Assembly: GCF_002953715.1 (NCBI RefSeq) | Contig: NZ_CP025012.1 | Location: forward strand, 3,860,501 to 3,924,500 | From: Rhizobium leguminosarum | Lineage (GTDB): Bacteria; Pseudomonadota; Alphaproteobacteria; Rhizobiales; Rhizobiaceae | DNA: 64,000 nucleotides | Reading direction: 5' to 3' | Part shown: positions 19,583 through 23,284 of the stretch, in pieces | How positions within the stretch are numbered: position 1 is the first letter of the stretch | Layout of the letters: each line of letters opens with the position of its first letter | Translations under genes and position numbers: made by a program | The notes under the pieces: model-generated | The model's input: the letters and a program-made list of their open reading frames with translations, nothing else | Database searches by the model: none | Told to the model about the DNA's origin: nothing

Positions 19583-19798
19583 AAGATATCGCCGCGATAT
19601 GTTCGCGTGTCGGCGCCACTTTTCACGCGATTGTGTTTCCGCGTGCGCCGGGGAGTTAGCGACCACGCGCCGCTTCACCCGCCAAAGAGACAATCCGCGC
19701 CGCAACCACACCAGGCCCGCCTGCCTGGGTGGTCAAACGGCGCGGACATTACCAGCCGGGGGAAAATTCCCAACCTGGCTGGCCGGTCGGCGCAGCCT

Positions 19799-19904
19799 TA
19801 CAGCGCCGCGCGTCTTTTCAGACGCGCAAAGGACGCTGTAACACTTTGAATCGACGCACCGTGCTTTCCGAAAAACAATTCCGATTTTCGGGCCGATGCG
19901 CTAG
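19799..19904. repeat. rhizobial intergenic palindromic repeat, family A copy 2
   Basis: A 106-base element starting TTACAGCGCCGCGCGTC, with GCGTCT/AGACGC hairpin arms and a second palindrome around AATTCCGATTTTCGG. It nearly equals the copy at 23181. It ends on the stop codon of the following minus-strand acetyltransferase gene, so it may act as its 3' structure. Confidence 0.75.
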
Positions 19905-20491
19905 GCTGCGCGGCGAGCCGGCGCGCTGGCCAGCATGCGTCCCGAGGGGACGATCATGCCGGCCGCGCCGTCAAGCCAGCCTTCCGTGAGTTCGAGCGCA
20001 AGAAAGCGCGAACGTTCGAACGGACCCGGCATGACAAGATGGCGAGCCTTCTCGGCAAAGAAGCCGAAACGCTCGTAATAGGCAGCATCGCCGACGAGCA
20101 GGACGGCGCCATGCCCGCGCTTCTTCGCTTCGAGGATCGCCGCGCGCATCAGCGCCGAACCGATGCCCTTGCCGCCGTGATGGGGCGCAACGGCGAGCGG
20201 TCCAAGCAGCAGCGCATTGATCGGCGTGCCTTCGTCATTGACGCCGGCCTCGATGTTCCAGAGCCGCACCGAGCCGATGACATGGCCGTCGCGATCGCGC
20301 GCGACGAGCGCAAGGCCCTCTGCCGGAACGCGGTTGCGGCGGATCTTCTCCGACGACTTCTTGCGGCGATCCGGTCCCATGACGCGATCGAGCAGGTTTT
20401 CACGAGCAACGACATCCGAAGGATTTTCGGCGTCGATGGCAAAAGTGGTAGGCGCAAAGAATGCGCGGACAGAATCAAGAACAGCGGCCAT
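19901..20491 (-). CDS. GNAT family N-acetyltransferase
   Basis: A 196-residue YhbS-like acetyltransferase. The acetyl-CoA loop is seen in LAVAPHHGGKGIGSALM (about residues 97-113) and the C-terminal AAYYERFGF motif (about 136-144) is typical. It lies between a repeat element and the ornithine decarboxylase gene on the same strand, separated from the latter by about 95 bases. Substrate unknown; polyamine acetylation would be attractive given the neighbour but has no direct support. Confidence 0.88.
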   Translation of the reverse strand: MAAVLDSVRAFFAPTTFAIDAENPSDVVARENLLDRVMGPDRRKKSSEKIRRNRVPAEGLALVARDRDGHVIGSVRLWNIEAGVNDEGTPINALLLGPLAVAPHHGGKGIGSALMRAAILEAKKRGHGAVLLVGDAAYYERFGFFAEKARHLVMPGPFERSRFLALELTEGWLDGAAGMIVPSGRMLASAPARRAA

Positions 20492-20585: not shown

Positions 20586-21719
20586 TTAGATGACGTAGGC
20601 CTTCAACGGGTCGAAACCGTTGAAAGCGACCGCCGAATAGGTCGTCGTATAGGCGCCGGTGCCTTCGATCAGGACCTCGTCGCCGATCGAAAGGGAGATC
20701 GGCAGCGGATAGAGGTTCTTCTCGTAGAGCACGTCGGCCGAATCGCAGGTCGGACCGGCAATAACGCAGGGCTCCATCTCGTCGCCGTCGTGATCCGTAC
20801 GGATCGGATAGCGGATGGCTTCGTCCATCGTCTCGGCGAGACCGCCGAACTTGCCGATGTCGAGGAATACCCAGCGGGCATCGTCATTGTCCGACTTCTT
20901 CGAAATCAGCACGACTTCCGCCTTGATGACACCGGCATTGCCGACCATGCCGCGGCCCGGCTCGATGATCGTCTGCGGGATCTGGTTGCCGAAATGCGTG
21001 CGCAGCGCCTGGTAGATCGACTTGCCGTAAGCTTCTGCGGACGGGACGTCGCGCAGGTACTTGGTCGGGAAGCCGCCGCCCATGTTGACCATCTGCAGGT
21101 GGATGCCCTGCTTGGCAAGCGATACGAAGACGCGCTTGGCATCGGCGAGTGCCGAATCCCAGGCGTCGACCTTGGTCATCTGCGAACCGACATGGAACGA
21201 GACGCCATAGGACTGCAGGCCGAGCTGATGGGCGTAGACGAGAACGTCGACAGCCATCTGCGGAACGCAGCCGAACTTGCGCGACAGCGGCCATTCAGCG
21301 CCTTCACCATCCGTGAGCACGCGGCAGAAGACACGGGCGCCGGGAGCGGCGCGCGAGATCTTCTCGACTTCCTCGTGGCTGTCGACGGCAAAGAGGCTGA
21401 CGCCGAGCGCATGCGCGCGGGCAACGTCACGTTCCTTCTTGATCGTGTTGCCGTAGGAGATGCGGGCGGCGGTCGCACCGGCTTCGAGCGCCATTTCGAT
21501 TTCGGCAACGGATGCGCAATCGAAATTGGAGCCGAGGCCTGCAAGCAGCTTCAGCACTTCAGGGGCCGGGTTGGCCTTGACGGCATAATAGATGGCGCTG
21601 TCCGGCATAGCGTGACGGAAGGCGTGGAAATTGTCGCGAACGACGTCGAGGTCAACCACGAGGCAGGGACCATCGGGACGTCGGGTTGCGAGAAAGTCGC
21701 GGATGCGCTGGGTGGTCAT
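20586..21719 (-). CDS. odc: ornithine/lysine decarboxylase (alanine racemase fold)
   Basis: A 377-residue PLP-dependent decarboxylase of the eukaryotic-type fold, making putrescine from ornithine (some relatives also accept lysine). The PLP lysine is K48 in YAVKANPAP; the glycine-rich phosphate loop is MGGGFPTKY; the C-terminal active-site Cys is in GPTCDSADVLY. The ATG at 21719 follows GAGGG at seven bases. The frame is open for 131 codons further upstream but that segment is a leader, not protein. Expression is probably controlled by the roughly 400-nt leader. Confidence 0.93.
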   Translation of the reverse strand: MTTQRIRDFLATRRPDGPCLVVDLDVVRDNFHAFRHAMPDSAIYYAVKANPAPEVLKLLAGLGSNFDCASVAEIEMALEAGATAARISYGNTIKKERDVARAHALGVSLFAVDSHEEVEKISRAAPGARVFCRVLTDGEGAEWPLSRKFGCVPQMAVDVLVYAHQLGLQSYGVSFHVGSQMTKVDAWDSALADAKRVFVSLAKQGIHLQMVNMGGGFPTKYLRDVPSAEAYGKSIYQALRTHFGNQIPQTIIEPGRGMVGNAGVIKAEVVLISKKSDNDDARWVFLDIGKFGGLAETMDEAIRYPIRTDHDGDEMEPCVIAGPTCDSADVLYEKNLYPLPISLSIGDEVLIEGTGAYTTTYSAVAFNGFDPLKAYVI

Positions 21720-21775
21720 ATCGATTCCCTCTTCCAATTCCAGAGCTCCGGTTTGAACCGGAGGACAAAGGGCAT
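21716..21775 (-). CDS. possible leader peptide overlapping odc start
   Basis: A short open frame in another frame of the odc leader ends with TGA sharing ATGA with the odc ATG. From the ATG at 21775 it gives 19 residues (MPFVLRFKPELWNWKRESI); in-frame starts at 21820 (34 residues) or a TTG at 21925 (69 residues, GAGG ten bases upstream) are also possible. The overlap would couple its translation to odc. No clear ribosome site precedes the shorter versions, so translation is unproven and it may be a by-product of a structured RNA. Confidence 0.25.
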   Translation of the reverse strand: MPFVLRFKPELWNWKRESI

Positions 21776-22125
21776 ACGATAGCTCGCATTGGAACCAGCC
21801 GGTGGAGACCCCGGAACCATAGCAAGCGCTCGATGCGCAGATCGTGAACCAACGCCGCGATGCGGTGTAAGTTCGGCTTTGTCTGCCATGGATTGGAGGG
21901 AGAATCCCAACCGCACTTCCGGCAATGATGGTGTGCCTCTTCAGTAACCCCCGCTGATGGAAAGCAGGGAGAGAACAAAAAGGCCCGCACCGTCGTTGCT
22001 TCAGGCGTCCTCGCATTTTCCGGTTGGCCGGAATAGCGACTGGAGGGGTTAATTCCAGGTACCTTACCGATTTCCTCACCAATTCGAGGGTTCGGCGGAC
22101 ACCCATGGGCACGTGCGACTTTGGG
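21720..22125 (-). ncRNA. candidate speF-type structured leader of ornithine decarboxylase
   Basis: The 400 bases before odc on the minus strand contain strong local pairing, including a perfect stem CTCCGGTT/AACCGGAG (21746-21763) about 27 bases before the start codon, and CCGG arms near 21800-21813. Alphaproteobacterial ornithine decarboxylase genes are known to carry a conserved structured leader, the Rfam speF element, in this place. I infer the same here from position and pairing; I could not run a covariance search. Confidence 0.45.
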
Positions 22126-22246
22126 CTGAGTGGGAAATAAGAATATTCGCCTTCATAATCAAGCGATTTTTTAATCTCAGGCTAAAAAAATAATTGAACA
22201 AGACGAGCCAATTTGTTCAACATTCCGAAACAGCCTGAGGGGTGCC
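22126..22246. promoter_or_regulatory. divergent promoter region, odc leader / LysR
   Basis: Very AT-rich stretch (TTTTTTAATC, GCTAAAAAAATAATTG) between the start of the LysR gene and the odc leader. It is likely to hold both promoters. The LysR regulator could bind here, but no obvious T-N11-A palindrome stands out. Confidence 0.4.
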
Positions 22247-23140
22247 ATGGATACCTTGACCCGCATACGTGCCTTCATCGATGTCGTCGAGGCCGAAGGC
22301 TTCTCCGCCGCGGCACGACGCACCGGCCGCTCAAAGGCGCTGCTCTCCAAATATGTGCGCGAACTGGAGGATGAGCTCGGCGCCCTGCTGCTCAACCGCA
22401 CCACCCGGCAATTCTCCATGACCGAAGCCGGCCACACCTATTACCGCACCGCCTCCGATATCTTAAAGGAGATCGACAACCTTGCCGATCTCGTGCGTGA
22501 GAACAATGCACAGCTCAAAGGACGGCTGCGCATTTCCGTGCCGCGCACCTTCGTTGATGCCGATGTCGGCCAGTCGCTGATCGATTTCGCCAAGGAGAAC
22601 CCGGATCTTTCACTGGAGATCGCCGCCGATGACCGGTTCGTCGATCTGATCGAGGAAGGCTTCGACGTCGCGATCCGCATCACCAAGCTCGAAGATTCCG
22701 GCATGATCGCCCGCAAGATCTCGGATTTCCGCATCCATATCTGCGCCACCCCTGAATTTCTCGAGCGTTATCCCGATCTCGATCACCCAACGGCCCTTTC
22801 CAGCGTCCCCTTCATCGTCGATACCAATGCGCGCACCCAGGCAAGCATCCGCTTCCACAATCCTGACAACACCTCGTTCGCCGTCGCCGTTTCCGGACCG
22901 ATAGAGGTCAACAGCCCGCATGCGACATTACGCGCGGCACTTGCCGGCATCGGCGTAGCCTTCATCCCGGATTTCATCGCCCGCAAGCCGATCGAGAGCG
23001 GCGAACTGGTGACCCTGTTCAACGATTACACCCCGACCGACCGCGGCATCTATGCCGTCTATCCGCACCGGCGCTACCTGCCGGCCAAGGTGAGGATCTT
23101 CGTCGACTACCTGCACAACTGGTTCAAGAAGCATCCATAG
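22247..23140 (+). CDS. LysR family transcriptional regulator
   Basis: A 297-residue regulator with the LysR winged helix at residues 1-60 (FIDVVEAEGFSAAARR, then SKALLSKYVRELEDELGALLLNR split over two helices) and a substrate-binding domain from about 90. The ATG follows CTGAGGGG. It belongs to the branch with a short linker similar to many stand-alone LysR proteins. It is divergent from the ornithine decarboxylase gene with 527 bases between start codons, so control of odc is possible but unproven. Confidence 0.92.
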   Translation: MDTLTRIRAFIDVVEAEGFSAAARRTGRSKALLSKYVRELEDELGALLLNRTTRQFSMTEAGHTYYRTASDILKEIDNLADLVRENNAQLKGRLRISVPRTFVDADVGQSLIDFAKENPDLSLEIAADDRFVDLIEEGFDVAIRITKLEDSGMIARKISDFRIHICATPEFLERYPDLDHPTALSSVPFIVDTNARTQASIRFHNPDNTSFAVAVSGPIEVNSPHATLRAALAGIGVAFIPDFIARKPIESGELVTLFNDYTPTDRGIYAVYPHRRYLPAKVRIFVDYLHNWFKKHP

Positions 23141-23180
23141 GGTAGCGCCCTTGCGAAGCGATGCGACATTCCGCCCTGCT

Positions 23181-23284
23181 CTACAGCGCCGCGCGTCTTT
23201 TCAGACGCGCAAAGGACGCTGTAGCACTTTAAATCGCTGCATAATTTTATCCTTAAATCGATTCCGATTTAAGGAATTATGCAG
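23181..23284. repeat. rhizobial intergenic palindromic repeat, family A copy 3
   Basis: A 104-base element with arms CTACAGCGCCGCGCG...GCGCAAAGGACGCTGTAG and a second hairpin CTGCATAATT...AATTATGCAG. It is the most symmetrical copy of family A in the window and sits between the LysR gene and the DUF1007 gene. Confidence 0.75.

Follow-up and report, generated by a model that had tools for sequence, protein, structure and literature searches.

The leader of the ornithine decarboxylase gene (odc) of Alphaproteobacteria is probably a single composite cis-regulatory RNA, in which an attenuator is joined to the speF leader. The window, the whole stretch of 64,000 nucleotides from Rhizobium leguminosarum analysed here, gave two matches above curated cut-offs when compared in full with Rfam 15, both on the minus strand ahead of odc: (i) ar45 (RF02347), the 5' module of the leader, at 21979–22126, with 165.4 bits against a cut-off of 40 (E 2e-38, model positions 1–148 of 148), and (ii) the speF leader element (RF00518) at 21815–21970, with 108.3 bits against a cut-off of 37 (E 6.2e-26, model positions 1–153 of 153). 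The gap between them is 8 nt. The initial annotation had described a structured minus-strand leader before odc and had suggested that it was speF. A leader of about 400 nt, from about 22126 to the odc ATG, is indeed present, and the covariance model confirms the speF identity; the span then proposed, 21716–22125, corresponds to the ar45/speF pair plus the untranslated rest, its first half having been missed as a second family, ar45. Upstream, at 22135–22163 on the minus strand, the sequence carries a −35-like CTTGAT (22163–22158) and a −10-like TTATTT (22140–22135) separated by a 17-nt spacer, and a U-run (21977–21981, minus strand) follows the ar45 stem and is the presumed point of termination. 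The leader thus belongs to two known families and is better read as one attenuator plus leader, a mechanism that we infer. The observations reported are of its anatomy, the co-occurrence of its parts, their covariation, the promoter position and the absence of a conserved ORF.

The gene behind the leader (20586–21719, minus strand, ATG at 21719–21717) encodes a 377-aa PLP-dependent decarboxylase of the ornithine/DAP/arginine type, which places the speF element of the window in the leader of an ornithine-decarboxylase-type gene. The product matches Pfam PF02784 and PF00278 and its closest PDB relatives are lysine/ornithine decarboxylases (5gjm), while no NCBIfam model reached its cut-off (lysA, 184 bits against 298 required); the name odc is based on the Pfam and PDB matches together with the gene reported to follow speF in the literature. 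A GNAT acetyltransferase gene (19901–20491) begins about 95 nt beyond the end of odc, on the same strand, and is possibly co-transcribed with it. A divergent LysR-type regulator gene (22247–23140, plus strand) has the intergenic region in common with the odc promoter. The odc/LysR region is flanked by a 101-nt direct repeat, 81% identical between its copies (19787–19887 and 23170–23270), which may be a dispersed intergenic element.

The ar45 core and a proposed attenuator

The conserved part of ar45 was defined in a survey of 181 distinct leaders, which combined a set of 173 with 8 from other orders. Both halves of the core were found in 177 of the 181, a count that, like the others over leaders, is not one of independent events because many leaders come from close relatives, and 14–249 nt are inserted between the halves. 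The core is a terminator-like stem holding near-invariant internal-loop strands: of the 177 core-bearing leaders, 170 match UCGCACGUGCC exactly and 173 match AAGCAACGACG exactly. At its base, the GCCC at 22126–22123 of the window pairs with GGGC, and the same GCCC/GGGC stem is present in 175 of the 177 leaders, 13 of which have a longer spacer; the remaining two have compensated changes (ACC/GGT in L175, ACCC/GGGT in L196). In the extension helix of five pairs, represented by 37 distinct combinations, pair 2 can form in 35, with six pair types, compared to a shuffled mean of 16.8 and maximum of 26. Pairs 3 and 5 lie narrowly above the shuffled maximum (31 against 30 and 32 against 31), while pairs 1 (35, maximum 35) and 4 (29, maximum 30) do not exceed it, which counts against an attenuator.

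A run of 5–6 T follows the core in 155 of the 177 leaders and is shorter or absent in 22. In the window leader the stem runs directly into the U-run, as expected of an intrinsic attenuator, and the MFE structure of its ar45 (−55.8 kcal/mol) reproduces the Rfam structure. Two natural forms of 58 nt, L156 and L164, take up the predicted structure at −13.4 kcal/mol. Two of the seven ar45 forms folded, L175 (58 nt, −6.5 kcal/mol) and L113 (88 nt), adopt other structures, and this too argues against attenuation. A simple pattern scan lists no terminator at ar45, the stem of which is interrupted by internal loops. Compact natural forms occur in L156, L164, L166 and L175, where only 14–15 nt separate the core halves and the branched insert is absent.

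A promoter scan using an E. coli-type consensus found no promoter before ar45, and both negative scans count against the model set out below. A CTTG-type −35 motif at a distance of 32–40 nt before the ar45 GCCC was present in 154 of 173 distinct leaders, where about 1% would be expected from its density downstream of ar45. From these promoter signals, the odc mRNA most likely begins with ar45.

These data have led us to propose a model whereby transcription would start at the first nucleotides of ar45 and the 5' end of the transcript, GCCC, would close the stem just before the U-run, generating an intrinsic terminator with near-invariant internal-loop strands. When the ar45 stem is stable, transcription would stop and release the "sRNA" ar45/SmrC45; when it is unstable, the polymerase would continue across speF into odc. 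Control of odc translation would be added in this longer RNA by speF and the hairpins with UCCA loops described below, and in Rhizobium also by the stem over the ribosome site. Termination may be regulated by an effector acting at the conserved internal loops, with the end product favouring termination.

Hairpins P1 and C and the ribosome site

The first hairpin of the speF element in the window, P1 (21950–21968, minus strand), carries a 7-nt loop of the UUUCCAU type (NUCCANN). A script detected P1 in 129 of 173 distinct leaders. In an alignment of all 46 distinct P1 sequences, six of six pairs show changes on both sides, a result reached by 41 of 500 shuffles, and the covariation score is 0.757 compared to 0.248 after shuffling, a value reached by none of 500 shuffles. 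Directly after speF, and outside both Rfam models, lies a further hairpin, C, which in the window's family takes the form CCGGGGUCUCCACCGGCUGG (21795–21814, minus strand). A version with a 7-nt loop occurs in 88 of 173 distinct leaders, 47–174 nt before the ATG and never in the window's family, and repeats the NUCCANN loop type of P1. The hairpin C alignment comprises 81 of 82 distinct hairpins, that of L175 having been left out as the script had taken P1 there; eight of eight pairs are changed on both sides, as happens in 2 of 500 shuffles, 84.3% of the cells pair against 59.6% in shuffled alignments, and covariation is 0.646 against 0.207 (0 of 500 shuffles), with slid pairings at 0.12–0.20. 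In the genus, CCGGGGUCUCCACCGGCUGG occupies the place of hairpin C and its stretch CCGGGGTCTCCACCGGCTGG is invariant in the alignment. Position and loop suggest that this hairpin, with its UCCA/CUCC loop, is homologous to hairpin C.

The invariance of the loop motif in both alignments stems from the searches, which demanded TCCA. The hairpins were therefore sought again with that demand removed: of the 114 leaders that do not belong to the window's family, 74 have UCCA in their best 7-nt-loop hairpin at −130 to −46 and 40 do not, and in 71 of the 74 the motif occupies the same loop position. The control regions yielded no such loop, with 0 of 114 at the start of odc and 0 of 41 in sequence far upstream.

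Two separate hairpins with covarying stems and an identical loop type, one that recurs where it was not demanded, would be expected if an RNA-binding protein recognized P1 and C and thereby set termination or translation, without direct binding of a small molecule to the RNA. This explanation, which is compatible with attenuation, also agrees with in-line probing of the Agrobacterium tumefaciens leader, for which the 2005 study reports in vitro binding by none of six metabolites (PMC1273637), a result that counts against the composite model. We consider it a somewhat doubtful account, as no candidate protein has been identified, hairpin C is altered in the window's own family, and the loops could pair with RNA instead. 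Indeed, C loops are complementary to ribosome sites generally: the duplex energy averages −6.9 kcal/mol in 88 leaders, compared to −5.0 with shuffled sites and −3.7 with the stretch from −50 to −26. Covariation between loop C and the ribosome site was not seen, since a loop and a site from one leader pair no better than those combined across genomes (permutation P = 0.26). The hairpin C loop of L085, L087, L120 and L126 reads GUCCACA and finds its best partner in a GGAC about 20 nt upstream of the ATG, not in the ribosome site. Some P1 and C hairpins have the loop CUCCAAA, which presumably resembles the anticodon loop of tRNA-Trp.

Closer to odc, the initial annotation had pointed to a perfect CTCCGGTT/AACCGGAG stem, which is present at 21763–21756 and 21753–21746. 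In the MFE of the window leader (L064) it lies inside a predicted stem at 21727–21772 (minus strand), in which CCCUUUGUCC (21772–21763) pairs with GGAAGAGGG (21735–21727), the ribosome site. Within the genus the CTCCGG/CCGGAG stem is largely conserved while its loop varies, and CCCUUU stands opposite RRRGGG in all 56 genus leaders. The ribosome site of these leaders has a mean openness of 0.188, compared to 0.307 with shuffled upstream sequence, and is less open in 41 of 56. Six genus leaders were folded; the MFE pairs CCCUUU with the ribosome site in two (L064 and L034) and takes other forms in L002, L030, L021 and L038. A structure over the ribosome site, partly kept in the genus, is plausible, and the CTCCGG/CCGGAG pairing is predicted to lie inside a Rhizobium-specific stem that hides this site. 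That leaders in general hide the ribosome site was rejected, since 122 leaders from outside the genus show no trend (0.275 against 0.274, lower in 63 of 122). This result, like the missing covariation of loop C with the ribosome site, counts against the composite model.

Linkage of ar45 to speF and the published small RNA

Co-occurrence was examined in 297 genomes of the order at E ≤ 0.001, with stricter filters under which weak matches are lost. Matches to ar45 were found in 127 genomes, 113 of them above the family cut-off, and matches to speF in 145 (146 places), 118 of them above the cut-off; a single match to each lies in the window's genome. Of the 127 ar45 sites, 123 are followed by speF 6–12 nt downstream in the same orientation, with a distance of exactly 8 nt in 96. 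Among the sites with no adjacent speF match, those in G244 and G321 are weak 33-bit ar45 matches, while those in G110 and G147 are above cut-off, and G110 (L196) has an odc leader with the ar45 core. Conversely, 23 speF places have no adjacent ar45 match, and at least five of these carry the ar45 core with inserts of 207–249 nt (L107, L128, L131, L135 and L140). In a class-wide survey of 289 genomes, run with the same stricter filters and loss of weak matches, speF was found in 12, of which 4 belong to the window's order (the window's own genome included); in the other orders it precedes odc in 8 of 8 cases. Three of the 23 order-level speF places without adjacent ar45 (L194, L195 and L197) had no odc in the stretch fetched and fell below the cut-off at E of about 1e-4, and were taken as false.

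In the literature, ar45 is known as a small RNA. SmrC45 of Sinorhizobium meliloti was described by del Val et al. in 2007 as 181 nt long with its end at an intrinsic terminator, increased about 2-fold by luteolin and undetectable in nodules (PMC2780559), while a table in a 2020 review gives coordinates spanning 148 nt and lists RpoH1/2 (PMC7143759). The window element belongs to the same family by covariance model and likewise ends in a U-run. Discrete small RNAs of this family are thus published for S. meliloti and for Bartonella bacilliformis, in which ar45 is reported as a separate RNA and speF within a transcript of more than 700 bases (PMC2780559, PMC7717549). SmrC45 is also reported to bind Hfq (PMC2848018), which would fit a role in trans, and a study from 2025 treats ar45 as an intergenic sRNA whose role is unclear (PMC12403871). 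Valverde et al. (2008), in turn, give smrC45 and speF as one locus (PMC2573895).

A discrete, Hfq-bound RNA, separate from speF in Bartonella and classed as intergenic, would be accounted for if ar45 were an independent gene for a trans-acting sRNA that merely adjoins speF-odc. We regard this as unlikely, given that spacing to speF is fixed at nearly all ar45 sites, that the promoter signals stand before ar45, and that a gap of 6–12 nt is too small to hold a second promoter. On the strength of this spacing and promoter position, the published "sRNA" is most simply explained as an attenuated 5' end of the odc mRNA, although its terminated product may act in trans. Short RNAs of such origin have precedents in ChiZ and IspZ of E. 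coli, which are stable RNAs from an mRNA 5' end, made in the case of IspZ likely via intrinsic termination; they derive from unrelated genes, and function in trans is reported for them (PMC7815308).

The speF leader of Corbino et al. (2005) is the same as that of the window in family, by covariance model, and in gene context, and its description already includes a 5' stem with a large insertion on top, which corresponds to the later ar45 part (PMC1273637). The Rfam speF model covers the 3' part only and ends just before hairpin C, and the last 150 nt are described by Corbino et al. as being without a confidently assigned structure (PMC1273637). New relative to 2005 are the two-strand ar45 core with its inserts of widely varying length, hairpin C, and the repeated UCCA loop. 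The literature searched, in which subscription journals are thinly covered, gave no account of an ar45-speF attenuator, of a unified anatomy or of hairpin C.

The short ORF and what the leader may sense

A translation-coupled sensor had originally been suggested by an out-of-frame ORF at 21716–21925 (minus strand), of 69, 34 or 19 codons depending on the start, whose TGA overlaps the odc ATG in ATGA. These features are present in the window, at no more than the level expected by chance. A close odc is found in all 60 genus genomes examined, and its product starts MTT in 59 and MAT in one; the overlap follows from this Met-Thr N-terminus. Among the 57 leaders distinct over the last 220 nt, ATGA is kept in 56 and an open frame of 19 codons or more in 51, which favours the ORF, while ATG occurs at codon 19 in 16 and at codon 34 in 14. 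The invariant CCCTTTGTCCTC stands 50 to 56 nt from the ATG, a variation that distributes the leaders over the three frames as 29, 16 and 12, and L038, L048, L059 and L060 have a stop one sense codon upstream. When 59 leaders that differ over a longer stretch were aligned, gaps occupied 20 of the 63 columns before the ATG, and the columns of the codon-19 and codon-34 starts read ATG in 25 and 21 leaders, respectively; all 59 retain the TTG that belongs to the 69-codon form, yet it falls within the invariant RNA part of speF. No codon periodicity was seen in the 19-codon ORF of this alignment, with variabilities of 0.139, 0.160 and 0.136 at codon positions 1, 2 and 3, compared to 0.002, 0.000 and 0.194 for odc codons 2–10. 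Start, frame and peptide thus vary within the genus, and the alignment that was proposed as a check on the ORF revealed no conservation of it.

The enterobacterial speF leader with orf34/SpeFL resembles the rhizobial one in being a long ornithine decarboxylase leader with premature termination and structure over the ribosome site, and is reported to contain a conserved translated ORF near its 5' end and to use Rho-dependent termination (PMC6386406); the rhizobial leader, in contrast, has a terminator of the intrinsic type and lacks the conserved upstream ORF that the SpeFL/orf34 system needs. It is thus very improbable that a leader peptide with the C-terminus WNWKRESI acts like SpeFL, sensing ornithine or arginine and passing ribosomes on to odc via ATGA, however regularly the overlap and open frame recur, and the ORF, with neither start nor frame kept, no codon periodicity and an overlap forced by Met-Thr, is judged to be a product of chance outside the system.

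What the speF leader senses has been a question since 2005. Most rhizobia are said to have putrescine and homospermidine as their soluble polyamines, and in S. meliloti the polyamine supply is reported to influence symbiosis as well as growth and exopolysaccharide (PMC13293326). The compounds that the 2005 passage names do not include homospermidine (PMC1273637). Tentatively, ar45 and speF could be halves of one sensor, in which the internal loops of ar45 would form a receptor of the polyamine state, with homospermidine as a candidate ligand, and the UCCA-loop hairpins flanking speF would provide a second recognition module for the read-through RNA. If this were true, the natural 58-nt forms would unite a complete receptor and terminator in one stem. 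Reading ar45-speF as one transcript offers an explanation in cis for a supposed sRNA and yields a short RNA with a near-invariant terminator core, whose termination can be assayed directly, and the repeated-loop hairpin offers a concrete bait with which to look for a protein or RNA partner.
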